A DNA stretch of 64,000 bases from Glycomyces harbinensis (GTDB taxonomy: Bacteria > Actinomycetota > Actinomycetes > Mycobacteriales > Micromonosporaceae): the NCBI RefSeq assembly GCF_900101745.1, contig NZ_FNAD01000015.1, positions 62,001 to 126,000 of the forward strand. Reading direction: 5' to 3'. This document shows positions 32,934 through 48,097 of the stretch, piece by piece. The position numbers and the translations under genes are program-made. Below the pieces are notes generated by a model. The model was not told the DNA's origin. It did not search any database and saw only the letters and a list, made by a program, of their open reading frames with translations. Positions within the stretch are counted from its first letter, which is position 1. Every line of letters starts with the position of its first letter.

Positions 32934-33160
32934 GTTGATGTCCTTTCTCGCGCAATCCGGTGAGGGGTACGTCGAGCATCGGTGCGGGTGCGCCGCAAGG
33001 CAAGGATCGGCGGCGGATGTGGTTCGCGCGGTCAAGGGCTGCGCGCTCGGGGCGGCTCGTTGCTCACCGGCGCAACATGGTCGAGTCCATTCGTTCACGG
33101 CCCCGTACTATCCTGGCCGGGACACGTACCCTCATGCGAGGCCGGTGACTAGTGCGAGCA

Positions 33161-36100
33161 ATGTCAGACGCGCTTCAATTCAAAGTACTCGGTCCGGTTG
33201 CGGTCGCGCTCGACGCCGAACCGCTTCTGGTTCGCGCGCCGTTGCAGCGCCGACTGCTCGCGGCCCTGCTCACGGGGTCCGGCCAGGTCGTAACGGGCGA
33301 AGCGCTCGCCGAAGCGATATGGGATGAAGCGCCGCCCGATAATGCACGAAATGCCCTTATGGTCTATCTACATCGGTTGCGGCGGGCGCTCGGAGCGGCG
33401 CATCGGATCGTCCGCGAACCGGCCGGATATCGCATTCTCGTGACGGCGGAGGACTTCGACGCCAGGGCATTCGACGAATTGTCGGTTTCGGCGCGGAATG
33501 AACGGGGCAAGAACCGGCTCGAACGGTCGGCCGAACTGTATTCGCGCGCCATGGAGCTGTGGCGCGGCGAGCCGTACGCCGACGTGCCGCCGCTCGGTCC
33601 CATCGCCGCCGAGGCCCTGCGGCTGCGCGAGCGCCGCTCGGTGGTGCACCAGGAGTCGCTGGAGGTGCGGCTCGACCTGGGCCGGCACGCCGCCGTCGTC
33701 GGCGAGTTCGAGGCCCTGGCCCGCGACCACCCGTTCCGCGAGCGGCTGACCGCCCTGCGGGCCGTGGCGCTGTACCGGGCCGGACGCCAGGCCGAAGCGC
33801 TCCAGGTGTTCCGCGAGAGCCGCAAGGCCCTGCGCGAGGAGCTGGGCATCGACCCCGGGCCGCTGCTCCAGCGCGTCCACGACGCCATCCTGCACCGCGA
33901 CGAGCGGCTCGAGACGGTCTCGACCGGCAGCATCGAGGGCGACTGGACGCCGCCGGCCCAGCCGCGGATCGAGGTCCGGTCCCCCGCCGCGGTGACGCCG
34001 CGCGAACTGCCCGCCGACGTCACCGCGTTCACCGGGCGCGAGAACGAACTGCGGGACCTGGAGGCGGCCCGGCTCGGCGACGAGGCCGAGGGCATCCCGC
34101 CCGCGTCGATCGTCGTCCTCTCCGGCATGGCCGGCGTCGGCAAGACCGCCTCGGCGATCCACTGGTCGCGCAGGGTCGCCGGGGACTACCCCGACGGCCA
34201 GCTGTTCCTGGACCTGCGCGGCCACGCGGGGGTGCCGACGCTGCGGCCCATCGAAGCGCTCGCGGCGATGCTGCGCACCCTCGGCCTGGACGACGACCAG
34301 GTCCCCGCGGACGCCGACCAGGCCGCCGCGCGGCTGCGCACCGCGACCGCGGGCCGGCGGATGCTCCTGCTGCTCGACAACGCGCGCTCGGCCGAGCAGG
34401 TCACGCCCCTGCTGCCGAGCGGACCTGGCTCCCTGGTGATCGTGACGAGCCGCAACCACCTCGGCGACCTGCTCGCCCGCCACGGCGGCTTCCACCTCCC
34501 GCTCCGACCGCTGGACACGGAGGAAGCGGTCTCGCTCCTGAAGTCCCTGCTGCGGCTGCCGCGCTCGGCCCGGCGCCCGGAGATCGACGAGCTCGCACGG
34601 CGCTGCGGCTACCTGCCGCTCGCGCTGCGGATCGCCGCCGCGAACCTGGTCCACGGGCCGCAGGGCCTGGGCGAGTACACCGAGCGGCTCTCGTCCGGTG
34701 ATCCCCTGGCGGCCTTGCAGATCGGCGACAGTCCCGAGACCGCGGTCAAGGCGACGTTCGACCGCTCGTACGCCGCCCAGCCCGAGGACGCGCGCCACGT
34801 GTTCCGCATGTTCGGCATCGCACCGGTCGGCTCGCTGTCGATCGACGCGCTCGCCGCGGTCGCGGGCACCGGCCGGAAGGAGGCCGAGCGGGCCGCCGCG
34901 CAACTGGTGAACGCCAACATGGTCGACCGCGACGAACACGGCCGGCTCTCACTGCACGACCTGGTGCGCGACTACGCGAACGGCCTCGTCGACGCCGAGG
35001 ACCCGCTGCGGGCCGAGGCGCTGGAGCGGCTGTTCACCTGGTACCGCGAGACGGCCGACGCGGCCGGCGGCACCCGGTACCCCGGCAGCGCCCGGCTGCA
35101 GCACCCCGACCACGCCGGAGGCGCCCCGCGCTTCGACGCCCCCGAGACCGCCGCGAGGTGGCTCGAAGAGGAGCGGGAGCAGCTCATCGCGATCGCCCGG
35201 TACGCCGCCGAGCACGGACACGGCTCGGTGGCCTGGCGCCTCGCGGACTCCCTCCGGGCCCACACCTGGGCGGCGATGGACAGCGTGGACTTCCTGGCGC
35301 TCGCGGACGCGGCGCTGCGCGGCGCCCGCGAGGTCGGCAGCGTCCCCGGCGAGGCGGTGGCCGAACTCGGCGCCTCGACCGCGTACCTCAAGGCCCGCGA
35401 CTTCACCAACGCGGTCGAGCACGCCGCGCGCGCGGTCGAGCTGTCGCACCGCATCGACTGGGTCCCCGGCCAGGCCTCCGCGCACCACAACATGATGGTC
35501 GCCTGCTGGCTGACCGGGCGCCTGCGCCTCGCGCTCGAGCACGGGGAGGCGGCGCTCGCGATCAACCGCGAGCACGGCAGGCTGCGGGGCCAGAGCGTCA
35601 ACCTCGGCGCGCTCGGCGTGGTCTACGGCGAGCTCGGCGAACTGCGCCGGGAACTGGAGCTGCACACGGAGGCGCTCACCATCGCCGAGAAGATCGGCGA
35701 CTCGCGGCTGCAGCGCTCGCACCTGCGCAACCTCATGTCGGAGTCGATCGAACTGGGCAGCATGGACAAGGCCGAGCACCACATGGACCAGGTCATGCGG
35801 ATCGAGGCCGACACCGGCGGCGGCGAGCTCACACCGCTCGCCGCGGGCGGCCTCGCTGAGCTGTACTCGGCGCTCGGCAGGTACGACGACGCGCTGCCGT
35901 ACGCGGAGCTGGTCGTGCGCGAGGCGGAGACGAACGGCGACCGGCGGCGGGAGGCCGAAGGCCTGGTCTCGGTCGCCGCAGTGCTCAACCGGCTGGGACG
36001 CCACTCGGAGGCGGTGGACGTCGCGGGCCGGGCCCTGGAACCGGTCGGGAGCGACCTCATGGGCATCAGGATCAACGTCCTCATCGAACGCGCCGTCGGC

Positions 36101-36454
36101 CTCATCGAACTCGAGCAGATCGAGGCCGCCCAGGCGGACGCGGCGTCCGCGCTCGACCTGGCGCGCCGAGGCGGCTTCCTCATCCGTGAAGGACTGGCGC
36201 TCAACCTCCAGGCCGAGGCGGCACTGCACCTCGGGGAGACCGCGACCGCGCGCGGACTCGCCGAGGCCGCGGCGGACCTCCTGAGCCCCACCGGCTACCT
36301 CGCCGGCGAGGCCTGGTCGCTGTCGCTCCTGGGCGAAGCCACCGGCGCCGACGGCGACGAGGAGGCGGCCGCCCGGTACCGGAGCCGGGTCGAGCAGACC
36401 TACGCGCAGACGGGCGCGCCCGTACCGACCCGGTTCGGCACCGAACCGCAGTGA
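33161..36454 (+). CDS. large AfsR/SARP regulator: HTH-BTAD-NB-ARC-TPR
   Basis: This protein of about 1097 residues is a pathway-type activator. It has a winged HTH at about 5-95 (LQFKVLGPVAVALDAEPLL...NALMVYLHRLRRAL) and BTAD at about 100-245. The NB-ARC ATPase has Walker A GMAGVGKTA at about 322-330 and Walker B RMLLLLDNA, followed by a winged helix and TPR repeats from about 650 onward. ATG 33161 or GTG 33152 are both possible. It lies 166 bp upstream of the first bacteriocin-type precursor in the same direction. The repeated 15-bp element before each precursor is a candidate binding site, so it is the most likely activator of the cluster. Confidence 0.85.
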   Translation: MSDALQFKVLGPVAVALDAEPLLVRAPLQRRLLAALLTGSGQVVTGEALAEAIWDEAPPDNARNALMVYLHRLRRALGAAHRIVREPAGYRILVTAEDFDARAFDELSVSARNERGKNRLERSAELYSRAMELWRGEPYADVPPLGPIAAEALRLRERRSVVHQESLEVRLDLGRHAAVVGEFEALARDHPFRERLTALRAVALYRAGRQAEALQVFRESRKALREELGIDPGPLLQRVHDAILHRDERLETVSTGSIEGDWTPPAQPRIEVRSPAAVTPRELPADVTAFTGRENELRDLEAARLGDEAEGIPPASIVVLSGMAGVGKTASAIHWSRRVAGDYPDGQLFLDLRGHAGVPTLRPIEALAAMLRTLGLDDDQVPADADQAAARLRTATAGRRMLLLLDNARSAEQVTPLLPSGPGSLVIVTSRNHLGDLLARHGGFHLPLRPLDTEEAVSLLKSLLRLPRSARRPEIDELARRCGYLPLALRIAAANLVHGPQGLGEYTERLSSGDPLAALQIGDSPETAVKATFDRSYAAQPEDARHVFRMFGIAPVGSLSIDALAAVAGTGRKEAERAAAQLVNANMVDRDEHGRLSLHDLVRDYANGLVDAEDPLRAEALERLFTWYRETADAAGGTRYPGSARLQHPDHAGGAPRFDAPETAARWLEEEREQLIAIARYAAEHGHGSVAWRLADSLRAHTWAAMDSVDFLALADAALRGAREVGSVPGEAVAELGASTAYLKARDFTNAVEHAARAVELSHRIDWVPGQASAHHNMMVACWLTGRLRLALEHGEAALAINREHGRLRGQSVNLGALGVVYGELGELRRELELHTEALTIAEKIGDSRLQRSHLRNLMSESIELGSMDKAEHHMDQVMRIEADTGGGELTPLAAGGLAELYSALGRYDDALPYAELVVREAETNGDRRREAEGLVSVAAVLNRLGRHSEAVDVAGRALEPVGSDLMGIRINVLIERAVGLIELEQIEAAQADAASALDLARRGGFLIREGLALNLQAEAALHLGETATARGLAEAAADLLSPTGYLAGEAWSLSLLGEATGADGDEEAAARYRSRVEQTYAQTGAPVPTRFGTEPQ

Positions 36455-36486: not shown

Positions 36487-36534
36487 TGATCCGATCGGCT
36501 CGAATCGGCCGCCATCGCTTGTGCGGCGGCCGAT
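36487..36534 (+). promoter_or_regulatory. repeat 1: element TGATCCGATCGGCTC, +30 block and hairpin
   Basis: The 15-bp element (36487-36501) recurs before each of the three precursor genes. A second block GCTTGTGCGGC begins exactly 30 bp after its start (36517), as in repeat 2. CGGCTC and GCTTGT spaced by 15 bp may be a -35/-10-like pair. A 10-bp perfect hairpin (36504-36513 with 36525-36534) overlaps and could also end the regulator transcript. Confidence 0.65.
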
Positions 36535-36620
36535 CCGGCTGCGATCGTCTCGGTACGGACGGGCATCCGCCCGATCCGGCCGCGGGCGAGACCGCCCGCA
36601 CCGAGAGAGGATGAACTCCC

Positions 36621-36890
36621 ATGCAGCACATGTCGAAGAAGACCCGGGTGGTGGCCTCGGCGGCCGGCGCGATCGGCGCCCTCGGACTGCTCACCGCCAC
36701 GATCGGCCTGATGTGGGTCGCGGCCACGTACGGCGTCTCCCACGCCACCGCGACCCGCATCGTCGACGCGGTCATCGCGGGCGGCGTCACGCTCGCCATC
36801 CTGTTCGGCGCGTTCCCGTGGGTCGTGCCGCTGTACGCCACCATCCTTCACGTGACCAACTCCCGCACCAGGGCCGCCGCGATCCGCTAG
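36621..36890 (+). CDS. circular-bacteriocin-type precursor, peptide 1 (divergent)
   Basis: This 89-residue precursor has a basic leader (MQHMSKKTRV), a hydrophobic stretch and a predicted core beginning WVAATYGVSHATATRIVD at residue 32, giving about 58 residues. The core aligns with peptides 2 and 3 over WVA--(Y/L)G(V/I/L)S-A-A--IV-A, but diverges in its second half (FGAFPWVVPLYATILHVTN) and ends in AAAIR. It contains a second Trp and a Pro. GAGAGGATGA precedes the ATG at the distance used for the other two. It may be a partner peptide or a specialised immunity peptide rather than an active bacteriocin. Confidence 0.7.
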   Translation: MQHMSKKTRVVASAAGAIGALGLLTATIGLMWVAATYGVSHATATRIVDAVIAGGVTLAILFGAFPWVVPLYATILHVTNSRTRAAAIR

Positions 36891-36891
36891 G

Positions 36892-36911
36892 GCGGCGGCG
36901 TGCGCCGCCGG
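36892..36911 (+). terminator. GC hairpin after precursor 1
   Basis: GGCGGC and GCCGCC arms directly follow the stop codon at 36890, forming a tight stem. There is no T run; the hairpin could protect the short transcript 3' end or attenuate read-through. Confidence 0.45.
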
Positions 36912-36920
36912 ACCGAACGA

Positions 36921-37015
36921 TGATCCGGTCGGCTCATTTCGAACCGAAAGGCTTGTGCCGCATCACCGAACGCTGGGATGGTGAAGTTGCGGCCGGGCAA
37001 CGGTCCGGCCGCAAC
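36921..37015 (+). promoter_or_regulatory. repeat 2: element TGATCCGGTCGGCTC, +30 block and leader hairpin
   Basis: The element lies at 36921-36935 and the GCTTGTGCCGC block at 36951 (30 bp from the element start). A perfect 10-bp hairpin GTTGCGGCCG/CGGCCGCAAC (36986-36995 with 37006-37015) lies in the presumed 5' leader of precursor 2. Confidence 0.7.
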
Positions 37016-37084
37016 ACAATGGATGGTTCGTCGCCGCATCGCGGACACCGATCGCGACGGACCGCCCCACGAGAGGATGAAACC

Positions 37085-37351
37085 ATGCAGCTCAAGAAGA
37101 TCCTCGGCGGCGCGGCCGCCGGAGCCCTCGGCGTCGCCGGCCTGCTCACCGCCGGCCTCGCGCTGGCCTGGGTCGCCGGTTCGCTCGGCATCTCCGCGGC
37201 CGCCGCCAGCCAGATCGTCAACGCGATCATGGTCGGCGGCACCGCCCTGGCCATCGTCATCGCGATCTTCGGCGGCGGCATCATCAGCGCCATCGCCTTC
37301 ACCGTGCGTGCGATCGTCGCCCGCGTGGGCACCGCCCACGCGATCGCGTAA
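37085..37351 (+). CDS. circular-bacteriocin-type precursor, peptide 2
   Basis: This 88-residue precursor has a 28-residue leader with basic start (MQLKKILGG), a hydrophobic core and an AxA-like end (LALA). The predicted 60-residue core is WVAGSLGISAAAASQIVNAI... and ends in ARVGTAHAIA. The core closely matches the head-to-tail cyclised circularin A and amylocyclicin peptides (VAGALGV-AAA--IVN--, LASTLGISTAAA): hydrophobic, Gly/Ala/Ile-rich, cysteine-free, with late basic residues. ATG 37085 follows GAGAGGATGA. This peptide and peptide 3 share about three quarters of their core residues. Confidence 0.85.
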   Translation: MQLKKILGGAAAGALGVAGLLTAGLALAWVAGSLGISAAAASQIVNAIMVGGTALAIVIAIFGGGIISAIAFTVRAIVARVGTAHAIA

Positions 37352-37365
37352 CCCGCCACCAGCCT

Positions 37366-37401
37366 CGCCCCTCCGATCATCGCTTCCCGGTCGGAGGGGC
37401 G
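37366..37401 (+). terminator. strong hairpin after precursor 2 (attenuator)
   Basis: Perfect 11-bp arms CGCCCCTCCGA (37366-37376) and TCGGAGGGGCG (37391-37401) have a 14-nt loop and no T run. Placed 14 bp after the precursor stop, it probably lowers expression of downstream genes relative to the peptide or stabilises the precursor mRNA. Confidence 0.6.
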
Positions 37402-37458
37402 ATCGCGCGTTCGGGCCGCGCCTCGAAACCCGGAGCCGGACAACCGGAGGAGAACACC

Positions 37459-37845
37459 ATGCAGAAGCTGTACGCCGCCGCCGTCCGCCCCGCGTTCGCC
37501 GCGATCGCCGTCTGCGCGTCCGTCGCCATCGCGCTCCTGCTCGCACGGGCGGTCCCCGACACGCCCCTCGTATGGGGCGCGGCGGCGGCACTGGCCGTCT
37601 TCGGCGCACTGATCCCGGCCCTCGTCGCACTGCTGCACCGGTCCCGCCGGCCCCGCCTGCGGATCGGCGCGGCGGCCGTCGCGGCGATGACCGCGCACGC
37701 CGCGGCCACGAACGATCTCGTCGCCCCCTACCCCCAAGCGGCCCTGACGGCCGTCGGCGCGGTCCTCGCGCTCGCGACCGCGACCGTCGTCCTGCTCGCC
37801 GCCGCCGAAGCCCGGGCCGCAAGGCCCGGACGCGACAGGATCTGA
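37459..37845 (+). CDS. four-TM membrane protein between precursors, candidate immunity protein
   Basis: This 128-residue protein is almost wholly hydrophobic, with about four helices (PAFAAIAVCASVAIALLLA, VWGAAAALAVFGALIPALVALL, IGAAAVAAMTAHAA, ALTAVGAVLALATATVVLLAA) and a basic C-terminus. GGAGGAG precedes ATG 37459. Small hydrophobic immunity proteins are a standard part of circular-bacteriocin clusters, and this one lies between two precursor genes. The role is inferred from position and size. Confidence 0.6.
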   Translation: MQKLYAAAVRPAFAAIAVCASVAIALLLARAVPDTPLVWGAAAALAVFGALIPALVALLHRSRRPRLRIGAAAVAAMTAHAAATNDLVAPYPQAALTAVGAVLALATATVVLLAAAEARAARPGRDRI

Positions 37846-37862
37846 ATCTCCGACGCACGCGG

Positions 37863-37969
37863 TGACCCGTTCGGCTCGAAGAGTCGCGGAACGATTGCGC
37901 ACCGCAGCAACGGAACTGAACACTGAGTACAGCCCCGGTCAACCAGGGCTCACCCCGGGGCGGCCCCGG
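37863..37969 (+). promoter_or_regulatory. repeat 3: element TGACCCGTTCGGCTC with leader hairpins
   Basis: The element lies at 37863-37877, with a weaker +30 block (GATTGCGC at 37893). Two hairpins follow: AGCCC..GG/CC..GGGCT (37931-37950) and CCGGGG/CCCCGG (37955-37969). Order and spacing parallel repeats 1 and 2. Confidence 0.6.
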
Positions 37970-38010
37970 AGCGGACACCTCCGAAGCCGCCTCCCACGAG
38001 AGGATGACCA

Positions 38011-38277
38011 ATGAAACACAGCAACAAGGCGCTCGGCGCCGTCGCCGCGATGCTCGGCACCGCCGGACTGCTCACCGCGGGCATCGCGCTCGCCTGGGTC
38101 GCCGGCTCGCTCGGCCTGTCGGTCGCGGCCGCCACCCAGATCGTCAACGCGATCATGGTCGGCGGGGCCGCGCTCGCCATCGTCATGGCACTGTTCGGCG
38201 CCGGCATCATCAGTGCGATCGCCTTCACCGTGCGTTCGATCGTGCTGCGCGTCGGCTCCCGCGCCGCGGTCGCCTAA
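38011..38277 (+). CDS. circular-bacteriocin-type precursor, peptide 3
   Basis: This 88-residue precursor has the same layout as peptide 2: a 28-residue leader (MKHSNKALGA..., ending GIALA) and a 60-residue core WVAGSLGLSVAAATQIVNAI... that ends LRVGSRAAVA. Differences from peptide 2 are conservative and concentrated near the C-terminus (RAIVARVGTAHAIA against RSIVLRVGSRAAVA). ATG 38011 follows GAGAGGATGACC. It is the last precursor before the processing and transport genes. Confidence 0.85.
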   Translation: MKHSNKALGAVAAMLGTAGLLTAGIALAWVAGSLGLSVAAATQIVNAIMVGGAALAIVMALFGAGIISAIAFTVRSIVLRVGSRAAVA

Positions 38278-38291
38278 CCGGACCACATACG

Positions 38292-38846
38292 GTGCTGCTC
38301 GCATCACAGGTCAGGCTCACCGGTCGCACGCAGTACGTCGCGCTGCTGGTGAGCCTGACCGTCTTCATCACCGGCGCCCTGGTCGGGTACCACTCGCTCA
38401 GCGGCCTCGAACTCTTCACCGAAGGCGGGGACGGCGGCCACGACCAGTCGCTGGCGGGCATCGTCGGCCAGAACCTCGGCGCGGCGATGCTCCTCTACTC
38501 GGGCGTCGTGACCCTCGGCATCAGCTCCCTGCTCGGACTGGGAATGACCTCCGCCTTCGTCGGCGCGACGATGGCCGTCGCCGTCGACAACGCCGGCTGG
38601 GGCGAGGTCATCGGCACCGCATGGGCCTACGCCCCCATCGAGTTCGGCGGATGCGTGGTCGCCGCGGCGGCCGGCCTCTACCCCGTCCTCTCCGTGATCG
38701 GCAAGGTCTTCGCCGCCGAGGAGCGCCTGGCGCTGCTCAGCACCTACGCGCGCGGCCTCGTCGACTCCCTGAAACTGCTCGCCCTGGCCGTCGCGATGAT
38801 CCTGTTCGCCGGGCTCGTCGAGCTGGTCGTCATCGTATTGGAGTGA
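38292..38846 (+). CDS. SpoIIM/DUF95-like membrane protein of the bacteriocin cluster
   Basis: This 184-residue protein with about five helices carries GQNLGAAMLLYSGVVTLGISSLLGLGM and then AYAPIEFGGCVVAAAAGLYPV. These match the SpoIIM/DUF95 pattern (N--VA-L---G--LG, then P-----E----I-AGAAGL). DUF95 proteins occur in most known circular-bacteriocin clusters and are thought to act in maturation or secretion. GTG 38292, 14 bp after precursor 3, is the best start; no strong Shine-Dalgarno is seen. Confidence 0.75.
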   Translation: MLLASQVRLTGRTQYVALLVSLTVFITGALVGYHSLSGLELFTEGGDGGHDQSLAGIVGQNLGAAMLLYSGVVTLGISSLLGLGMTSAFVGATMAVAVDNAGWGEVIGTAWAYAPIEFGGCVVAAAAGLYPVLSVIGKVFAAEERLALLSTYARGLVDSLKLLALAVAMILFAGLVELVVIVLE

Positions 38847-38850
38847 ACCG

Positions 38851-39450
38851 TTGAGCACCCAGGCACCGAACCCGGCCGCAGAGGTGGGCGACGCACCGCC
38901 GCCCGAGGAGGCGGCCGCCGCCGAGCCGCCCCGGCCGCCCGCCACCAGCCGACCGCTGTGGCTGATCGCGTACTTCGCGATCATCGCGCTCCTCGTGGCG
39001 CGGATCCCGCAGCTAGAGACCTATGTGGACGGCCGGATGCCGCAGGAGGCGCTCGACGCCATCGGCGACCCCGAACTCGAGCAATTGGCCGTCCGCAGCG
39101 CCATCATGATCGGCATCGTCCTCCTCGCGCTGGTCGCGGCCCTGTACCTCTCGCTCGCGGCGGTACTGGAGCGCGCGGTCTTCACCGCCAGGATCGCGAT
39201 CGGGAAGGGCATGAGCTTCGGGCTGTACTTCCTCGTCATCACGCTCTGCCTCATCCCGGCCAACCTGTTCAGCCTCCTCACCGGCGTGGTCGCGGTCCGC
39301 GAGCACATCTGGTACTTCCTGTACCTCGGCCTCATCGGGGTGGTGGCGCCGTTCGCCTACCGCAGCACCTGGAAAGGCCTGCCGCGCCGCAAGATCGCGC
39401 TCCTGTTCGCCACCACGATCGGCCTGACCGCCCTGACGGCGGCGGGCTGA
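38851..39450 (+). CDS. four-TM membrane protein of the bacteriocin cluster
   Basis: This 199-residue protein has a Pro/Ala/Glu-rich cytoplasmic N-terminus (about 1-33) followed by hydrophobic helices (LWLIAYFAIIALLVARI, IMIGIVLLALVAALYLSLAAVL, GLYFLVITLCLIPANLFSLLTGVV, WYFLYLGLIGVVAPFAY). TTG 38851 has GGAG about seven bases upstream and follows the DUF95 stop by 4 bp. I do not recognise a family; its place between the DUF95 gene and the large membrane protein suggests part of the export or processing complex. Confidence 0.65.
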   Translation: MSTQAPNPAAEVGDAPPPEEAAAAEPPRPPATSRPLWLIAYFAIIALLVARIPQLETYVDGRMPQEALDAIGDPELEQLAVRSAIMIGIVLLALVAALYLSLAAVLERAVFTARIAIGKGMSFGLYFLVITLCLIPANLFSLLTGVVAVREHIWYFLYLGLIGVVAPFAYRSTWKGLPRRKIALLFATTIGLTALTAAG

Positions 39451-39466
39451 CCCGGATGGACCCCCG

Positions 39467-41035
39467 ATGAGCGCGCACGCGGCGGTGAGGGCCGAGCCGG
39501 ACGCCGCCGCGCGACCGGACCGGCCCGGCCGGGCCGCATTCCGCCGCTTCGGCGCCGTGCTGGACTTCAGGCACCTCGAACTGGTCACCGCGCTGCGGCT
39601 GCCGATGGGTCTGCGGCCCTTCCAGATCGGGTACGGCGGCGCGGTGCTCTTCGGGTTCGCGATCCTGGCGGCGGCTTCGGCAGCGGGGTTCGCGCTGTCG
39701 AACGCGCTGCTGAGCGAGCGCGCGGCCTCGGCGCAGGGGCTCCTGGTCGTGCTCGGCGTCGGCAACCTCTACATCGGGGGCGGCTATCTGCTGCGGGAGG
39801 CGTTCTCGGGCAGGCGGTTCCAGGTGTCGAACTCGTCGAACACCGCACTCTTCCGGGCCCTGGACCTGTCGGCCCGCGACGTACTCATCGTCTACTGCGG
39901 ACTCAGGATCACCGGGTACTTCGCGGCCGTGGCCCTGGTGGACGCGATGTTCCTGAACGCCTTCGCCTCTCGCCTGGATCTGGCGGGCGCCACGGTCGCG
40001 GCCGTCTTCGCGGTGCCGGCCGCGGCCTGGGCGGCGACGTTCGCCGTAGCCGCCCGGTCGGCCAGGCGCAGCGTGCGACCAACGGTCCACCGGCCCTGGG
40101 CGGTGCCGGCCCTCGTCGCCCTCGCGTTCTCGGCGACCTGGGCGACCTCGGCGCTGCTCATCGAGCCGATGCTCGACGCCGGGCCGGTCGCGTGGATCGC
40201 CCGAAGCGGCCCCGGCGCGTTCACGACCGCACTGGCACTGGCCTGTACCGCGATCGGCGCGGCGGCACTGGTCGTCGCGGCACTCGACGTGCGGCGGCTG
40301 TCGGCCGAGTCGTTCCCGATCCAGCAGACCGCTCCCCCGCGTACGATCCGCGGCGCCGCGCCGCGGTCCCTCACCGGCGTCCTCGCCCTGGAACTGCGGC
40401 GCAGCCCCTACTACGTGCCGGTGCGGCGGTCGGTCGCCGTCCTCGTCGCCGTCCTGGCCGCCGGCGTCGGCGTCCTCGCCTCCGGAGCGACGTGGCTGCC
40501 GCTCCCCTCGGTGCCGGAGCGGACCGCGTTCGTGCTCACCGCGGTCGCGCTCGCCACCGCGCTCGGACTCGCCGAACTCGTGCTTCGGGCCATCGGCCCG
40601 GTGACCTACACCGCGCAGTACCGGTTCGCATACGAATCAGGGCGTTCGAGCCGGTCGGTCGCGCTCGGCGCGATCATCTGCTGCGCACTCCCGGTGGCGC
40701 TCATGGGCATGGCAGTGGATGCCGTCGCGGTCGTCGCGGCGGGCGCCCAGGCCGCCCCGGGAGCGGCGACGAGTGCGGCGGTCACGGCCGTGGCCGCCGC
40801 GCTCGTCGCGGAGACGGTGATCGCGCCGCCGCGCAACGCCGACGGGACGCTCGCGCCCAACCTCGTCGGAGCCGTCCTCGCCATGGTCGTGGCGGCCCCG
40901 GTGCTGCTGCCGTTCTCGTTCGCACTGCCCGCCGGCCAGGCTCTGGCCGGCGCCTACTCGATCTGCCTGCTAGGAGGTGCCTTCGCATGCGTGGAACGCC
41001 GCATTCGCTCACTGCCGTCGACATCGTCGACCTGA
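39467..41035 (+). CDS. large polytopic membrane protein of the bacteriocin cluster
   Basis: This 522-residue protein has ten or more hydrophobic segments and no soluble domain. It may play the part of the large integral membrane protein that in circularin-type clusters precedes the ATPase gene and DUF95 gene and is needed for production. Features include GVGNLYIGGGYLLREAFSGRR in the first third and LELRRSPYYVPVRRS in the second half. Its end overlaps the ATPase gene by 49 bp, implying tight coupling. It may be the permease partner of that ATPase. Confidence 0.7.
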   Translation: MSAHAAVRAEPDAAARPDRPGRAAFRRFGAVLDFRHLELVTALRLPMGLRPFQIGYGGAVLFGFAILAAASAAGFALSNALLSERAASAQGLLVVLGVGNLYIGGGYLLREAFSGRRFQVSNSSNTALFRALDLSARDVLIVYCGLRITGYFAAVALVDAMFLNAFASRLDLAGATVAAVFAVPAAAWAATFAVAARSARRSVRPTVHRPWAVPALVALAFSATWATSALLIEPMLDAGPVAWIARSGPGAFTTALALACTAIGAAALVVAALDVRRLSAESFPIQQTAPPRTIRGAAPRSLTGVLALELRRSPYYVPVRRSVAVLVAVLAAGVGVLASGATWLPLPSVPERTAFVLTAVALATALGLAELVLRAIGPVTYTAQYRFAYESGRSSRSVALGAIICCALPVALMGMAVDAVAVVAAGAQAAPGAATSAAVTAVAAALVAETVIAPPRNADGTLAPNLVGAVLAMVVAAPVLLPFSFALPAGQALAGAYSICLLGGAFACVERRIRSLPSTSST

Positions 41036-41643
41036 CCGCCGGCTACGAGCGCGGGAAGCCGGTCTTCCTGGGCTTCTCGGTCTCCTTCCCCGGCCGCGGG
41101 ACGACCCAGGTCCGGGGCCGCAACGGCTCGGGCAAGTCCACCCTCGCGGAACTGTGCAGCGGGTACCTCAAACCCTGGAGCGGCACGGTGACCGTCGCGG
41201 GCCGCGACGCGGGCCACCCGTCCGCCCGGGCACACCGCCGCGTCTGCCGCACCGAACCGGCCCTGTACCCCAACCTGACCGCCCGCGACCACCTCTCCTT
41301 CGCGTCCCGCAGCGCCGGAGCCGATCCCGCCGCCGCGCACGAGCGCGCCCGCGAATACGGCCTCGGCGACTGGATGTCCGCGGAGGCCAAGGCCCTCTCC
41401 ACCGGGAACCGCCGCAAGCTCTGGCTGGTGATGTGCACGCTCGGCGCCTTCGACGTCGCGATCCTCGACGAGCCGTTCAACGGCCTCGACGACCAGGGGC
41501 GCGACCGGCTGGCCGACGAGATGCGCGAGTGGTCCGAGCGGGCCGCGGTCCTCCTCATCGCGCACGCCGCCCCCGCCGAGGCGACGGTCGACGCGGCCTT
41601 CGACCTCGGCGCACCCGACCAACCGAAACCAGAGGAGTCCTGA
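40987..41643 (+). CDS. ABC-type ATPase paired with the large membrane protein
   Basis: This 218-residue nucleotide-binding protein has Walker A GRNGSGKST, Walker B VAILDEPFNGLDD and a signature LSTGNRRK instead of the usual LSGGQ. The translated frame continues upstream through shadow sequence; a perfect AGGAGGT (40975-40981 region) sets the start at ATG 40987. The gene sits where circularin-type clusters have their ATPase (cirD-like position). It probably powers secretion or maturation of the peptides together with the 39467 product. Confidence 0.8.
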   Translation: MRGTPHSLTAVDIVDLTAGYERGKPVFLGFSVSFPGRGTTQVRGRNGSGKSTLAELCSGYLKPWSGTVTVAGRDAGHPSARAHRRVCRTEPALYPNLTARDHLSFASRSAGADPAAAHERAREYGLGDWMSAEAKALSTGNRRKLWLVMCTLGAFDVAILDEPFNGLDDQGRDRLADEMREWSERAAVLLIAHAAPAEATVDAAFDLGAPDQPKPEES

Positions 41644-42572
41644 TGGCGCGCATCGAAGCCCGCGGGCTGAGCAAGCGGTTCGGCGGCAAGCACGCCGTCC
41701 GCGACGTCTCCTTCGACGTCGAACCCGGCCGGATCACGGGCTTCCTGGGCCCCAACGGCTCCGGGAAGTCCACGACCATGCGCCTCATGCTCGGCCTCGA
41801 CCTCGGGCAGGGCGAGACCCGCTTCGACGGCGAGACCTACCGCGAACTCGCCGACCCGGTGCGCCGCGTCGGCGCGCTCCTGGACTCCGGCGCCTTCCAC
41901 CCCAGGCGCAGCGCCCGCGACCATCTCCGCATGATCGCGCGGGGCGCGGGCCTGCCGCCCTCACGCGCCGACGAAGTGCTCAACCAGGTTGGCCTCGGGG
42001 CCGTCGCCGACCGGCCCCCGAAGGGGTTCTCGCTCGGCATGAACCAGCGGCTCGGGCTCGCCGCCGCGCTCATCGGCCGCCCCGACACGCTCCTGCTCGA
42101 CGAGCCCGCGAACGGCATGGACCCGCAGGGGATGCGCTGGCTGCGTGACTTCCTCGAACATTATGCGGCCGAAGGGAACACCGTCTTCGTGTCCTCGCAT
42201 CTGCTCGCGGACCTGGAGGCCTTCGCCGAGCACGTCGTCGTCATCGGCCAGGGCCGGCTCCTCGCGGACTCGCCGCTGAAGGCGTTCATGGCCGCGCACG
42301 GCGTCGAGCGCGTCCGCGTCCGCACCACCGAGCCCGAGCAGCTCGCGGCGGCGGTCGAGGACGCCGGCGGCGCCGTGCCCGAACGCGACGGCGAACGGCT
42401 CACGGTCACCGGCCTCGACGTCAAGGCCGTCGCCGAACTCGCCGCCTCCCGGCGGCTCCTCGTCACCGAGCTCGTGGCCGTCAGCGGCAGCCTCGAGGAG
42501 GCCTTCCTCAACGCCTCGGCCGCGTCGGTCGAATACGGGACCGATCAGGCCCGGATCGAGGTAACCCGATGA
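41643..42572 (+). CDS. ABC transporter ATPase, BcrA-like
   Basis: This 309-residue ATPase has GPNGSGKSTTMR, the signature FSLGMNQRLG, Walker B TLLLDEPANGMDP and the switch VFVSSHLL. A C-terminal extension follows (KAFMAAHGVERVRVRT onward), as in BcrA/DrrA-type exporters. The stop of the previous gene overlaps by one base (TGATG), and the permease follows with ATGA. In bacteriocin clusters a BcrAB-like pair usually confers self-protection. The pair at 55786-57500 is a paralogue. Confidence 0.88.
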   Translation: MARIEARGLSKRFGGKHAVRDVSFDVEPGRITGFLGPNGSGKSTTMRLMLGLDLGQGETRFDGETYRELADPVRRVGALLDSGAFHPRRSARDHLRMIARGAGLPPSRADEVLNQVGLGAVADRPPKGFSLGMNQRLGLAAALIGRPDTLLLDEPANGMDPQGMRWLRDFLEHYAAEGNTVFVSSHLLADLEAFAEHVVVIGQGRLLADSPLKAFMAAHGVERVRVRTTEPEQLAAAVEDAGGAVPERDGERLTVTGLDVKAVAELAASRRLLVTELVAVSGSLEEAFLNASAASVEYGTDQARIEVTR

Positions 42573-43369
42573 GCCGCAACGCACTCGCCTACGAATGGGC
42601 CCGCCTGCGGACCCTCCGCTCCACCTGGTGGATCGCCGCGGTCTCGGTCGCCGTCACCGCCGTCGTCACCTGGGGGTACGCGTCCGTGGCGGTCGGCGTC
42701 GGCGACATCGGGATCACCGTGGGACCCGCCGAGGCCGTGGTCATGGTCATCGGGAAGTCCTCGTTCGCGCCGCTGGCGGCGGGCCTGATCGGCGTGCTCG
42801 CCGTGGGCACCGAGTACCGGCACCGCACGCTGCGCACCACCGTGCTCGTCACCCCGGACCGGACCGCCGCGATCACCGCGAAAGCGGTCACGGTGGCCGC
42901 CTTCGCGATCGCGATCGGCATCGCGAACCTCGCGGTCTCGTGGGCCGTCGGCGCGGCGGTGCTCGCCGGACGGATCGACCTCGGCGCGTCGGCCGGGCTC
43001 CTCGCAGGCTTCCACGCCGCGTACCTCCTCCAGGCCGCCGGCTGGGCGCTCATCGGCCTCGCCCTGACCGTCGCCACCCGCTCGCAGATCATCGGCCTCC
43101 TCGCGATCGTGCTCGTGCCCAATGTGATCGAGCCGCTGTTCGGTTCGATCGGGATGCTCGCCGGGCAGGACTGGCTCGCCCGCATCGGCGCGTACCTGCC
43201 GTTCTCCGCCGGGCAGGCGATGACCGACATCGCCGGCTCCACCTCAGCGGCGCTGCTCGCCGACGGCGAGACCAGGGCCGACCCGCTCATCGCCGGCCTC
43301 GTGTTCGCCGCCACGGTCGCGGGACTCGCGGTCTACGCCGTCAACGACTTCCGCCGCCAAGACCTCTGA
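42569..43369 (+). CDS. ABC-2-type permease, partner of the 41643 ATPase
   Basis: This 266-residue protein has six hydrophobic segments and the ABC-2 pattern LAYEWARLRTLRSTWWIAAVSV, GVLAVGTEYRHRTLRTTVLVTPDR and ALIGLALTVATRSQIIGLLAIVLVP. Translation is coupled to the ATPase (ATGA, 42569-42572). Together they form an exporter likely used for resistance to the peptides made by this cluster. Confidence 0.85.
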   Translation: MSRNALAYEWARLRTLRSTWWIAAVSVAVTAVVTWGYASVAVGVGDIGITVGPAEAVVMVIGKSSFAPLAAGLIGVLAVGTEYRHRTLRTTVLVTPDRTAAITAKAVTVAAFAIAIGIANLAVSWAVGAAVLAGRIDLGASAGLLAGFHAAYLLQAAGWALIGLALTVATRSQIIGLLAIVLVPNVIEPLFGSIGMLAGQDWLARIGAYLPFSAGQAMTDIAGSTSAALLADGETRADPLIAGLVFAATVAGLAVYAVNDFRRQDL

Positions 43370-43388
43370 CACGAATGGGGACCACGTG

Positions 43389-43895
43389 ATGCGACAACAC
43401 CTGACACCGATCCTCGCGGTGCTCGCCGCGGCCGCACTCCTGGGCGCCTGCTCCGACGACGGGGCGGACGACCAGGTCGCGACCGCCGGCGGGGACGCCA
43501 CCGAGAGCGCCGCCGAGTCCACCGCGGCGAGCGACGACGCCCAGGCGCTCGCGTTCGCCGAGTGCATGCGCGAGAACGGCATCGACATGCCCGACCCGAC
43601 CGCGGGCCTCGAGGGCCTGCTGGAGGCGGCCACCGCGTCCTCCTCCGGCCACACCGACGCCGAACTCACCGCCGCGATCAGCGCGTGCGAGTCCGAGCTG
43701 CCCGCCTTCGACGAGGTGGAGGGCGTCGACGTCGACGAGGAGGCCCTGCTCGCGCACACCGAATGCCTGCGGGAGCAGGGACTCGACATCTCCGACGACC
43801 TCGAGGACACCGCGCAGTACGAGGAGATGGACCCCGAACTCCTCGACGCGGCCTTCGCCGCCTGCGAGCACCTCCTCAACGGGACCGGCGGATGA
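43389..43895 (+). CDS. secreted lipoprotein with CMRENG motif
   Basis: This 168-residue protein has a lipobox (AAALLGAC) in its signal sequence, an acidic linker and two similar Cys-containing segments: FAECMRENGIDMPDP and HTECLREQGLDI, each followed by another Cys. Such 'FAxCMRENG' lipoproteins often lie beside HlyD/MacB-type exporters in actinobacteria. The start of the adaptor overlaps its stop (ATGA). It probably sits outside the membrane and assists the adaptor or binds metal or ligand. Confidence 0.7.
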   Translation: MRQHLTPILAVLAAAALLGACSDDGADDQVATAGGDATESAAESTAASDDAQALAFAECMRENGIDMPDPTAGLEGLLEAATASSSGHTDAELTAAISACESELPAFDEVEGVDVDEEALLAHTECLREQGLDISDDLEDTAQYEEMDPELLDAAFAACEHLLNGTGG

Positions 43896-44938
43896 GAAGG
43901 CTGCTCTGGCCGGCGATCGCGGTCGCCGCGATCCTCTCGGCGGGTGCGACGACCCTCGTCGTCCTCGACGCGCGCGGCGACACGGCCGAGGAGGAGCCCG
44001 AGGCCGACTTCCCCACGGCCGTCGTCGAACTCGGCGACATCACCGCCGTCGAGACCTGGAAGGGCACCCTCGACCACGGCACGCCCGCCACGATCGGCAC
44101 GGCCGCCTCGGGCACCGTCACGCGCCTCCCCGCGGTCGGCGACGACCTCGCCGTCGGCGACACCGAGATCTATGTGGACGAACAGCCGGTCGTCCTCCTC
44201 GAGGGCGTCATCCCCATGTACCGCGACCTCGGCCCCGGCGACAAGGGCCGCGACGTCGAGCAGCTGGAGCGGGGCCTCGCCGACCTCGGGTACGACGGCT
44301 TCACCGTCGACCGCGAGTTCACCTGGTACACCGCCGAAGCCGTCCGCCGCTGGCAGCGCGACCTCAAGGTCGAGAAGACCGGCACCGTCGGGGCGGACGC
44401 CGTGGTCTTCGTCGCCGAGGGCGGCCGGGTCGACCGCCTCCACGTCGCCGTCGGCGACACCGTGGCCGCGGGCGACGCCGTCCTCGACCTCAGCGGCCCA
44501 GAGGTCTTCGCCAGCCTGGAGGTCGAGGTGAGCGACCTCGACCTGGTCGAGACCGGCACCGAGGTGCTGGTCCTCCCGGCCGACGGGACCACCGTCGCCG
44601 GGACGGTGGCGCGGCGGGAAGTGGTCGAAGCGGACGCCGAGGCCGAGGGCGAGGAGGCCGAACCGGTCGCGCGCATCGAGGTCGCGCTCGCAGAACCGGT
44701 GCCGGAGGAGCAGATCGGCTCTCCGGTGAGCGTGGAGGTGGTGGTCGAGCGGCGCGAGGACGTGCTGCTGGTGCCGGTCTCGGCGCTGCTGGCCCTCTCG
44801 GAGGGCGGCTTCGGACTACAGCTCGCAGGGCAGGACGCCATCGTCGTCGTGGAGACGGGGCTGTTCGCCGACGGGAAGGTCGAGATCACCGGAGAGGGCT
44901 TGACCGAGGGCACCGAGGTCGGGACGGCCGGCCGCTGA
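43892..44938 (+). CDS. periplasmic-adaptor-type protein with peptidoglycan-binding domain
   Basis: This 348-residue protein has one N-terminal membrane anchor. A peptidoglycan-binding domain follows (GPGDKGRDVEQLERGLADLGYDGFTVDREFT...VRRWQRDLKVEKTG), then an HlyD-like barrel and lipoyl parts (VDRLHVAVGDTVAAGDAVLDLSG; VLVLPADGTTVAGTV) and a terminal MacA-like domain. It probably bridges the ABC transporter encoded downstream to the cell wall. Enterocin AS-48 clusters contain an equivalent adaptor (As-48F-like) for immunity and export. Confidence 0.82.
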   Translation: MRRLLWPAIAVAAILSAGATTLVVLDARGDTAEEEPEADFPTAVVELGDITAVETWKGTLDHGTPATIGTAASGTVTRLPAVGDDLAVGDTEIYVDEQPVVLLEGVIPMYRDLGPGDKGRDVEQLERGLADLGYDGFTVDREFTWYTAEAVRRWQRDLKVEKTGTVGADAVVFVAEGGRVDRLHVAVGDTVAAGDAVLDLSGPEVFASLEVEVSDLDLVETGTEVLVLPADGTTVAGTVARREVVEADAEAEGEEAEPVARIEVALAEPVPEEQIGSPVSVEVVVERREDVLLVPVSALLALSEGGFGLQLAGQDAIVVVETGLFADGKVEITGEGLTEGTEVGTAGR

Positions 44939-44967
44939 GCCGGCAGGTCGACCCGCGGACTGCCATG

Positions 44968-45008
44968 GGCCTGGCGCGGCGAAAGTTGGACACAGGCCGC
45001 GCCAGGCC
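44968..45008 (+). terminator. strong hairpin between adaptor and MacB-type genes
   Basis: Perfect 13-bp arms GGCCTGGCGCGGC (44968-44980) and GCCGCGCCAGGCC (44996-45008) have a 15-nt loop. It lies 30 bp after the adaptor stop and just before the GAGAGGATGA that leads the ATPase. Without a T run, it likely attenuates rather than fully stops transcription. Confidence 0.55.
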
Positions 45009-45031
45009 ACACCCAGAGAGGATGATTTCTC

Positions 45032-45847
45032 GTGGACGATCAGATTAACACCGCCGTGCAGGTGCGCACCGGCGACGAGAGGGCCGGTCCCGGGGCCGCG
45101 CGCCCGTCCGACCCGTCGGACGCATCGCCTTCACCGGAACCCGAACTCCCGCAGGACGATCCGGTGTCCGTGGTCGAGCTGGCCGGCGTCGACCGGACGT
45201 ATCCGGGCAAACCCCCCGTGGCGGCCCTTCGGGGCGTCGACCTCGCCGTCCGGCCGGGCGAACTGCTCGCCGTGGTGGGCCCGTCCGGCTCCGGAAAGTC
45301 CACATTGCTCAACATCGCGGGCACCCTCGACCGCGCCGACGCGGGAACCGTCCGCATCGACGGCCGCGACCTCTCGGACTGCTCGGACCGCCAGCTCGCG
45401 TCGATCCGCGCCCACCGCATCGGCTTCGTCTTCCAACAGTTCTTCCTCGCACCCGGCGCCAGCGCGCTCGACAACGTGGCCGACGGACTTCTCTACACCG
45501 GCCGCCCCAAGCGCGAGCGCCGCGAGGCCGCCTCCCGGACGCTCGAACGCGTCGGGCTGGGCGACCGGGCACACCACAAGCCGGGCGAACTGTCCGGCGG
45601 CCAGCGCCAGCGGGTCGCGATCGCGCGGGCGCTCGTGGGCGATCCGGGACTGCTGCTGACGGACGAGCCGACGGGCGCGCTCGACAGCGCCACGGGCGAG
45701 GCGATCGTGGAGCTGCTGGTGGACCTGCACCGCGGCGGGACCGCGGTCATCGTCATCACGCACGACGCCCAGGTGGCGGCGGCGATGCCGCGGCGGGTCC
45801 TGATGCGGGACGGTCGGATCGAGTCGGACGAGGCGGTGCGGGGATGA
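45032..45847 (+). CDS. MacB/LolD-type ABC transporter ATPase
   Basis: This 271-residue ATPase has Walker A GPSGSGKSTLLN, signature LSGGQRQRVAIARAL, Walker B LLLTDEPTGALD and switch VIVITHD, all typical of the LolD/MacB subfamily. The first 45 residues are a low-complexity acidic/Ser-Pro extension. GTG 45032 follows the same GAGAGGATGA used for the three peptide precursors. Coupled to the permease by ATGA. Matches the As-48G-type ATPase position. Confidence 0.87.
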   Translation: MDDQINTAVQVRTGDERAGPGAARPSDPSDASPSPEPELPQDDPVSVVELAGVDRTYPGKPPVAALRGVDLAVRPGELLAVVGPSGSGKSTLLNIAGTLDRADAGTVRIDGRDLSDCSDRQLASIRAHRIGFVFQQFFLAPGASALDNVADGLLYTGRPKRERREAASRTLERVGLGDRAHHKPGELSGGQRQRVAIARALVGDPGLLLTDEPTGALDSATGEAIVELLVDLHRGGTAVIVITHDAQVAAAMPRRVLMRDGRIESDEAVRG

Positions 45848-47037
45848 CGTTGGAGCCGTCGCGCCTGCGGGGCGCGGACCTGGTGGGTCTGGCGGTGGCC
45901 GGGATGCGGGCCCGGCCGCTGCGGGCCGTGCTGTCGGCGCTGGGCATCGCGGTGGGGATCGCCGCGATGGTGGTCGTGGTCGGGATCTCGGCGTCGAGCC
46001 GGGCGGAGGTCGAGGCGCAGCTGGAACTGCTGGGCACCAACCTGCTGACGGTGAGTCCGGGCCAGACGATCACCGGCGAGGAGGCGAGCCTGCCGCCCGA
46101 GAGCGTCGACATGGTGGCGCGGATCGGCCCGGTGGAGTCGGTGGGCGCGATCGGGGAGGTCGACGCGAACGTGTACCGGAGCGAGGCGATCGATCCGAAC
46201 CTGAGCAACGGCATCACGGTGTACGCGACCACAGTGGACCTGTTGGGTACGGTCGGCGGCGAGGTGGCGGAGGGCCGGTTCCTGGACGAGGCGCTCGCGG
46301 CGTTCCCGACGACGGTGCTGGGGTCGACCACGGCCGAGCGGCTGGGGATCACGGTCGCGGACGGTTCGGTCGCGGTGCGGATCGGCGACGAGGACTTCAC
46401 GGTGGTGGGCGTGCTCGAACCGGTGCCGCTGGTGCCGGAGCTGGACGCGGGCGCGCTGGTCGGCTGGCCGGTGGCCGAGGCGGAACTGGGCTTCGACGGT
46501 GCCCCGACGACGATCTTCGAGCGCTCGCCGGACGCGACGGTGGCGGCGGTGCGGGAGGTGCTGCCCGCGACGGCGAATCCGGAGGCGCCGCAGGAGACCG
46601 TCGTGTCGCGGCCGTCGGACGCGTTGGCCGCCAAGGCGGCGACGGACCGGACGCTGACGACGCTGCTGCTGAGCCTCGGCGGGGTGGCGCTCCTGGTCGG
46701 GGGGATCGGTGTGGCGAACACGATGGTGATCGCGGTGCTGGAGCGGCGCAGCGAGATCGGGTTGCGCCGTTCGCTGGGGGCGACGCGGGGGCACATCCGC
46801 GGTCAGTTCCTGGCGGAGTCGATGCTGCTGGCCGGTCTGGGCGGGGTCGGCGGGGCGGCGATCGGCGGCGCCGCGACGGCGGGGTTCGCGTTGTGGCAGG
46901 GCTGGCCGGTGTCGATCCCGTTGTGGGCCTTGGCGTTGTCGGCGGCGGCCACGATCGCGGTGGGGGCCGTGGCGGGCGTGTACCCGGCGTCGAAGGCGGC
47001 CCGGTACTCGCCGACGGTCGCGTTGAGCGCCTATTGA
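45844..47037 (+). CDS. MacB/FtsX-type ABC permease
   Basis: This 397-residue protein has an N-terminal TM helix (RAVLSALGIAVGIAAMVVVVGI), a large extracytoplasmic MacB_PCD domain (about 45-270) and three C-terminal helices. These come with GGVALLVGGIGVANTMVIAVLERRSEIGLRRSLGATR and the FtsX-like VAGVYPASKAARYSPTVAL. With the ATPase and the adaptor it forms a mechanotransmission-type exporter, as in the As-48FGH set. It ends the cluster. Confidence 0.87.
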   Translation: MTLEPSRLRGADLVGLAVAGMRARPLRAVLSALGIAVGIAAMVVVVGISASSRAEVEAQLELLGTNLLTVSPGQTITGEEASLPPESVDMVARIGPVESVGAIGEVDANVYRSEAIDPNLSNGITVYATTVDLLGTVGGEVAEGRFLDEALAAFPTTVLGSTTAERLGITVADGSVAVRIGDEDFTVVGVLEPVPLVPELDAGALVGWPVAEAELGFDGAPTTIFERSPDATVAAVREVLPATANPEAPQETVVSRPSDALAAKAATDRTLTTLLLSLGGVALLVGGIGVANTMVIAVLERRSEIGLRRSLGATRGHIRGQFLAESMLLAGLGGVGGAAIGGAATAGFALWQGWPVSIPLWALALSAAATIAVGAVAGVYPASKAARYSPTVALSAY

Positions 47038-47977: not shown

Positions 47978-48097
47978 GGGGTCCTCCGTATCGGTAAGCC
48001 TGACTGAATGAACGTTGCGTTCTTCGCCGTTGTTCCCGCGCTCTCGCGGATCGATGATTTCAGGGCCAGAGAAACCGTCATCGGCCAAGGAGTACCC

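Follow-up and report, generated by a model that had tools for sequence, protein, structure and literature searches.

The mechanism by which circular bacteriocins are cleaved and joined into a ring is unexplained (PMC10028692, PMC8659200), and the leaders of the class have been said to share no motif. Published sequence logos mostly end in an aromatic residue, with groups 4 and 8 ending in Ala (PMC8659200); short leaders end in L, N, E, K, F or D (PMC10028692); the leader of subgroup-ii members is cleaved after Asn (PMC7452424, PMC8659200); and circularin A requires a C-terminal aromatic residue, production being blocked by A, V, I, D, K or R at that place (PMC10028692). Among actinobacteria, a circular-bacteriocin cluster has been predicted in Arthrobacter sp. 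APC 3897, a strain which inhibits Listeria (PMC10456417), five clusters have been reported in propionibacteria (PMC5695211), and a further report counts two precursors from actinobacteria, mentions Mycobacterium abscessus and describes clusters that have two or three precursors (PMC8534725); other literature bearing on novelty comprises PMC11580447 and PMC13289728. Here, we analyzed a stretch of 64,000 nucleotides from Glycomyces harbinensis (contig NZ_FNAD01000015.1, positions 62,001 to 126,000; hereafter, the window), in which three short precursor genes, designated A, B and C, precede a series of membrane-protein and transporter genes. Judging from its sequence, this locus probably produces several bacteriocins circularized head to tail, which belong to a rare actinobacterial branch.

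Precursors B (88 aa, 37085..37351) and C (88 aa, 38011..38277), which like all genes of the cluster lie on the + strand, passed the cut-off (23.6 bits) of PF09221, the Pfam family of class IId circular bacteriocins, with 29.7 and 24.8 bits, respectively, and theirs were the only loci to do so in their own genome (6.17 Mb, 35 contigs). The match of B spans profile positions 1–66 of 67, leaving the final position unmatched. Precursor A (89 aa, 36621..36890) is divergent, ends in AAIR and reached 16.3 bits, its match being limited to profile positions 1–28 and to A residues 34–61. Identity is 72% between B and C, and 38% between A and B. An earlier sequence-only reading of this DNA had assigned circular-bacteriocin cores to all three genes; the profile confirmed B and C, while A fell below the cut-off and is no ordinary third copy. 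Further, a profile built from 12 actinobacterial precursors and run against the PDB had enterocin NKR-5-3B as its top match (E 8e-4) and AS-48 as its second (E 0.013).

The genes downstream of the precursors begin with a SpoIIM/DUF95 membrane protein (38292..38846; PF01944 with 34.6 bits vs. a cut-off of 26.9), followed by two membrane proteins without any Pfam family above cut-off, mp199 (199 aa, 38851..39450) and the large mp522 (522 aa, 39467..41035), and by the ABC ATPase ATP1 (40960..41643; ABC_tran). Next are a BcrA-like ATPase, ATP2 (41643..42572; ABC_tran), and an ABC-2-type permease, perm266 (42569..43369), which matched PF12730 with 23.3 bits, below its cut-off of 27; in the BcrAB-like pair previously proposed, the ATPase half is backed by Pfam and the ABC-2 half is left with a sub-threshold match. 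The series closes with a lipoprotein-like ORF (43386..43895; no Pfam family, kept beside the adaptor in two further genomes of the genus, G151 and G145), an adaptor whose sole Pfam domain is a peptidoglycan-binding one (43892..44938; PF01471, PG_binding_1, 37.1 bits), a MacB-type ATPase, ATP3 (45032..45847; ABC_tran, 117 bits), and a MacB/FtsX permease (45844..47037; PF12704 and PF02687). Between precursors B and C lies o128 (37459..37845), a hydrophobic protein of 128 aa with profile homologues elsewhere, whose gene the sequence-only reading had not singled out. Both the three short ORFs and the downstream series are where the sequence-only reading had placed them, with Pfam backing for the ATPases, the peptidoglycan-binding domain and MacB/FtsX, and the ingredients by which it had recognized a locus of circular-bacteriocin type, namely precursor, DUF95, ATPase and an AS-48-like set, are all present.

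Relatives of the precursors are rare. The 12-precursor profile matched 3 of the 22 genomes of the genus and, in 397 genomes of the order and 394 of the class, the own genome only. Counting the starting genomes, it matched 13 of 295 genomes in the family of an Arthrobacter genome, 5 of 279 in that of an Agrococcus genome and 1 of 277 in that of a Streptomyces genome. As the searches beyond the genus covered drawn samples, with only about 13–19 candidates scored per genome, weak relatives may have been missed. The named relatives come from Agrococcus, Kocuria, Arthrobacter and Streptomyces. When TIGR03651 (NCBIfam) was run over 300 family genomes, eight genomes matched; the matches in four genomes (G069, G035, G046 and G202; E 0.003–0.009) were dropped as false, because their surroundings (L030–L033) held no related cluster, L030 having weak SARP-like matches only. 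A plasmid search with precursor B gave no match. Separately, the NKR-5-3B core matched 110 Enterococcus plasmid records, and an E. faecium plasmid precursor (L074, 7932–8195) has no SpoIIM annotated within 8 kb.

We mapped 21 loci, counting the window and both of two identical Agrococcus copies, and later four more. In all 25, the window included, genes for a SpoIIM protein and an ABC ATPase were found at most about 5 kb away from the precursor. The ATPase is of the ATP1 type in 24 of them; those of L119 fit the ATP2 profile better. Homologues of mp199 were found in 19 of the first 21 loci and three of the later four (22/25), those of mp522 in 18 and one (19/25), and profile homologues of o128 in nine, again including the window, and one. 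For perm266, profile homologues occurred in 7 of 21 loci, and a weak ATPase–permease pair was also seen in L008. Beyond the genus, the commonest order was precursor, SpoIIM, mp199, (o128), mp522 and ATP1, with o128 homologues sitting between mp199 and mp522 in Streptomyces, Kocuria and Arthrobacter clusters; L060, L061 and L069 are arranged differently. The sequence-only reading had proposed that precursor homologues devoid of DUF95/ATPase neighbours would speak against it; since the relatives have both neighbours in 25 of 25 loci, the four marginal dropped matches aside, it is not refuted on this point. The two Agrococcus precursors (G971, C3:173545-173808 and C3:220183-220446; L045 and L046) are identical in score and sequence and lie on a single contig, approximately 47 kb apart on opposite strands, in clusters (L072 and L008) each having SpoIIM, mp199 and an ATPase.

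Within the genus, the sister species G151 has kept the gene order SARP-A-B-o128-C-SpoIIM-mp199-mp522-ATP1-ATP2-permease-lipoprotein-like-adaptor-ATP3-FtsX. Identities to the window range from 67% (C) up to 90% (FtsX), with 87.6% for precursor A and 75% for the SARP regulator. This shared order, together with the restriction of above-cut-off PF09221 matches in the genome to the B and C loci, speaks against a chance assembly. The ratio of nonsynonymous to synonymous substitution rates (dN/dS, Nei–Gojobori) between the two species was 0.46 for A, 0.54 for B and 0.71 for C, the last being the highest among the 14 genes with a value (SARP left out). The C precursor of the window has more in common with the B gene of G151 (L027, 9555–9818; 81% over 80 residues) than with its C counterpart there (67%), a likeness that may stem from gene conversion or from fast divergence of C. 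The third genome, G145, carries on one contig a good precursor and a second, weak match with an internal stop, together with a SARP-like gene beside the precursor (32% identity) and the SpoIIM to FtsX genes on the opposite strand; its permease, lipoprotein, adaptor, ATP3 and FtsX genes are contiguous with the remaining cluster.

The macAB-like set, comprising the lipoprotein, adaptor, ATPase and FtsX genes, segregates together with the precursors across the genus. A match to the FtsX permease of at least 73% identity was present in 3/3 precursor-positive genomes and in 0/19 negative ones, where identity was at most 65% and the top values were over fragments. Some FtsX match (E ≤ 1e-30) was found in 21 of the 22 genomes, with relatives at about 60% identity in most. 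Among the 21 loci, within the stretches fetched, the adaptor set occurred in the window, G151 and G145 only. The AS-48 cluster of pPD1 has a 169-residue protein, an adaptor, an ATPase and a permease at the equivalent relative place; the ATPase and FtsX profiles matched their AS-48 counterparts, and the lipoprotein and adaptor profiles did not match theirs. The AS-48-like adaptor/ATPase/permease set of the sequence-only reading is backed by a permease orthologue that tracks the precursors in the genus.

The junction between leader and core was then compared across 29 actinobacterial precursors, namely a first set of 25 and four later, held-out ones. None of them has a C-terminal aromatic residue: 25 end in Ala and four in Arg. 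Instead, W or Y stands directly before a [VIL]-A motif in 27/29, and in 18/20 when the first 25 were filtered at <85% identity. From this junction position to the C-terminus there are 60 residues in 27 precursors and 58 in two of A type. All four held-out precursors fit the pattern, though the profile that retrieved them includes the W column. The family profiles agree with this picture: B matches positions 3–72 of 73 in TIGR03651 and 1–66 of 67 in PF09221, so that the last position is left unmatched. In the first set, Ala is third from last in 25/25, and small residues are fixed at positions −13, −10, −6 and −5 in all 25 leaders, while a leader Gly ten residues before the W/Y position is invariant in 29/29. 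Together with the Gly, these small residues suggest a conserved helix face. Asn three residues before the junction, its place in gassericin A, was found in 0/29, the residue there being A, G, S, T or D. Cleavage behind the small residue at −3 (28/29) looked attractive but is not relied on here, for −5, −6, −10 and −13 are fixed as well and the residue at −3 may be no more than part of a helix face. The Arg-ending precursors are those at L065 8423–8731, L118 7346–7633, window 36621–36890 and L027 10940–11206; that of L065 adjoins an Ala-ending one and that of L118 is the sole precursor found there.

Two groups of precursors served for comparison. In four subgroup-i precursors (AS-48 and those of Listeria innocua, E. 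faecium and L073, with the core starts of the last three assigned by homology), the core starts with [ML][AST] and ends in W, and the residue before it is H, H, M and H, respectively. In the subgroup-ii precursors of gassericin A, plantacyclin B21AG and the L. paracasei peptide, W/F stands before I-A and the end is Ala, with the core starting two residues before W/F, after Asn. Since they mostly have W/Y before [VIL]-A and an Ala end, the actinobacterial precursors resemble subgroup i in the core and subgroup ii at the junction.

The position of the aromatic, on the opposite side of the junction, suggests that the ring may close at a different bond. We regard it as about evenly balanced whether the W/Y lies within the ring, with the cut one to three residues upstream of it; its conservation and the subgroup-ii parallel argue for this placement. 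The precursors might represent, with roughly equal chances for and against, a third circular-bacteriocin form, in which the usual ring stretch A-[IV]-A-[W/Y]-[VI]-A-G-x-L-G is retained while the gene is opened elsewhere, so that the aromatic which ends subgroup-i cores is encoded at the core start. The cyclase would then join Ala to Trp, or to a residue up to two upstream, a natural change of ligation register inside a single fold family to which we likewise give close to an even chance. Several observations weigh against W in the ring: H occupies the aligned position in AS-48, in its homologue from Listeria and in L073; W is accepted by circularin A as residue −1 of the leader but not as the first residue of the core; and the W70A variant of AS-48 still yields an active circular form, beside oxidised and linear ones (cited in PMC10028692, from which the circularin A data also come). 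Also on this side, two divergent precursors (L070, 7693–8082; L071, 8729–9118) have V at the junction and no aromatic at either end; both retain the 60-residue length and have SpoIIM and an ATPase nearby. The alternative is that W/Y is the last leader residue, in which case B and C would form rings of 59 residues closed from Ala to Val, with no aromatic at the junction. This is a tenable possibility to which we give somewhat less than even weight. It accords with the place of [VIL]A, which is that of the first two residues in subgroup-i cores, with the H or M found before the core in the four Firmicutes precursors, with the actinobacterial profile aligning from the second residue of the core, and with the functional L-1W leader of circularin A and the cyclisation of AS-48 W70A. 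It sits less well with the retention of an aromatic in 27/29 precursors, given the L, N, E, K, F or D endings of published short leaders (PMC10028692), with the aromatic end that circularin A needs, and with the equivalent W/F being part of the core in the three subgroup-ii precursors.

Other alternatives concern the products as a whole. The peptides could be exported in linear form, membrane-active and similar to circular bacteriocins in sequence but not cyclised, which we consider improbable. The structure models lean this way: AlphaFold2 returned a two-helix model for the full precursor (pLDDT 70.5, pTM 0.37) and helices of 7 and 50 residues for the core (pLDDT 83.8, pTM 0.46) rather than a saposin-like bundle of four or five helices, and a Foldseek search with the core model found no match at E ≤ 0.001. 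A two-helix model is among the outcomes that the sequence-only reading had named as contrary to it; with alignments of 12 and 22 rows and the linear form being modelled, we take the result as mild evidence against the circular reading, short of refutation, and make no use of it as support. Another point against that reading is given by the TIGR03651 scores (A 21.9, B 28.2 and C 24.8 bits), none of which reached the cut-off of 30.7 bits. Two more also speak for linear peptides: the Arg at the end of precursor A and three others (4/29), a residue that at this place stopped maturation of circularin A (PMC10028692), and the dissimilarity of mp522 and mp199 to the Firmicutes proteins compared. The mp522 profile scored at noise level against As-48B, mp199, mp522 and perm266 gave nothing above noise against proteins of the AS-48, gassericin A and L073 clusters, and o128 is at most weakly similar to As-48E. 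As-48D, for its part, was matched by the ATP1 profile, and a large membrane protein related to As-48B is not universal, none being annotated beside gassericin A. Against linear products stand SpoIIM and ATPase in 25/25 loci, the former called class-defining (PMC13289728) and both reported, with the precursor, in all clusters so far (PMC8534725), as well as the 60-residue spacing in 27/29 and the third-last Ala in 25/25 of the first set. It is also possible, though in our view doubtful, that only B and C are bacteriocins and that A is a companion, be it an inducer, an immunity peptide or a partner peptide. The partial PF09221 match of A (residues 34–61), its 58 instead of 60 residues and its AAIR end are compatible with this, and L065 has a second, adjacent precursor ending in AAIR; yet A resembles B and C in possessing a box and a leader of its own, and R is likewise the last residue of the sole precursor detected in L114/L118, so that an Arg end is not confined to companions. 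Lastly, the lipoprotein–adaptor–ATPase–FtsX set might be an unrelated neighbour, as its presence in 3/21 loci within the stretches fetched, all of this genus, and the FtsX matches of some kind in 21/22 genus genomes would allow. We find this unlikely in view of the FtsX match of at least 73% in 3/3 positive vs. 0/19 negative genomes and of the adaptor–ATPase–permease sets that AS-48 and L073 clusters likewise carry downstream.

Returning to circular products, gene content, conservation, co-segregation and aromatic positions were observed, and from them we infer each biochemical step of the following model. The SARP regulator would activate the locus, possibly at a box before each precursor. 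The precursor would enter the membrane via its hydrophobic leader with the invariant Gly, and a complex of SpoIIM, mp199, mp522 and ATP1 may remove the leader, link the last residue, which is Ala in B and C, to the N-terminus thus exposed, and export the ring. ATP1 is the likely partner of SpoIIM, and mp522 is a candidate for the role of As-48B, albeit without detectable similarity to it. The producer would be protected by o128, a candidate immunity protein, by ATP2–perm266, where ATP2 likely serves immunity/export, and by the lipoprotein–adaptor–ATPase–FtsX set, and the rings would permeabilise Gram-positive membranes.

With regard to regulation, the SARP/AfsR-type protein (1100 aa, 33152..36454, with BTAD, NB-ARC and TPR; Pfam BTAD 125 bits), encoded immediately upstream of the precursors, is the likely activator of the locus. 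The 15-nt box TGAYCCGNTCGGCTC occurs on the + strand 134 bp before precursor A (36487..36501), 164 bp before B (36921..36935) and 148 bp before C (37863..37877). As its pattern was made from these three copies, statistics within the window are circular and the genome-wide count is the better control: four matches, three of them at this locus, and 0 for the reversed pattern. The fourth (L111, 2775–2789; G000 C27:35774-35788) is flanked by one gene for a small secreted protein and another for an oligopeptide-binding protein. In G151, TCGGCTC is kept at all three box places. SARP heptamer repeats at fixed spacing were not found on inspection by eye, and that SARP binds to the box is a guess. Each precursor start is preceded by GAGAGGATGA, probably a shared ribosome-binding region. 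A promoter scan found none, and a terminator scan gave a single weak site on the opposite strand.

The window has a G+C content of 69%. Just past the cluster, at 47051–49507, are a divergent LysR regulator and an MFS transporter. PADLOC gave no match for the seven cluster proteins submitted.

The sequence-only reading had presumed that an actinobacterial or three-precursor locus would be new as such; this is not supported, since loci of both kinds were already predicted (PMC8534725, PMC5695211, PMC10456417, PMC7132975). What is new here is that 29 actinobacterial precursors have no C-terminal aromatic and that 27 have W/Y before the core motif. In the open-licence literature, as far as its accessible text extends, neither a characterised actinobacterial circular-bacteriocin product nor a statement on the aromatic position there was found, and the accessible parts of PMC10456417, PMC5695211 and PMC8534725 do not mention a SARP with repeated boxes or the aromatic position for their predicted clusters. 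If correct, a branch with the same closure residues but shifted gene ends would reveal which of the two guides the enzyme, the sequence of the ring or the border of the leader. A candidate minimal set consists of SpoIIM, mp199, mp522 and ATP1 (25, 22, 19 and 24 of 25 loci), and the SARP and the boxes before the precursors offer a possible handle for switching the locus on.

The locus shares an actinobacterial host and a sequence-predicted cluster with those of PMC10456417, PMC5695211 and PMC8534725; the Arthrobacter APC 3897 precursor, compared by description only, is given as 71.3% identical to AS-48 (PMC10456417). Like B. weihenstephanensis, it has three structural genes per cluster; there the copies are 92–100% identical (PMC7132975), vs. 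72% for B/C and 38% for A/B. Subgroup ii (gassericin A, plantacyclin B21AG and the L. paracasei peptide) is similar in having W/F before I-A..[FL]G and an Ala C-terminus; it differs in the Asn before the core, which the actinobacterial precursors lack, and in the accessory genes of gassericin A, and the actinobacterial profile is nearer to subgroup i. With subgroup i (enterocin NKR-5-3B, AS-48 and circularin A) the precursors have in common the core start [VIL]A..[LF]G, the C-terminal A-[IV]-A, the cationic character and the association with SpoIIM and an ATPase, and with AS-48 also the adaptor/ATPase/FtsX set. They depart from subgroup i in the missing C-terminal aromatic, the aromatic directly before [VIL]A, the extra mp199 and the SARP regulator.

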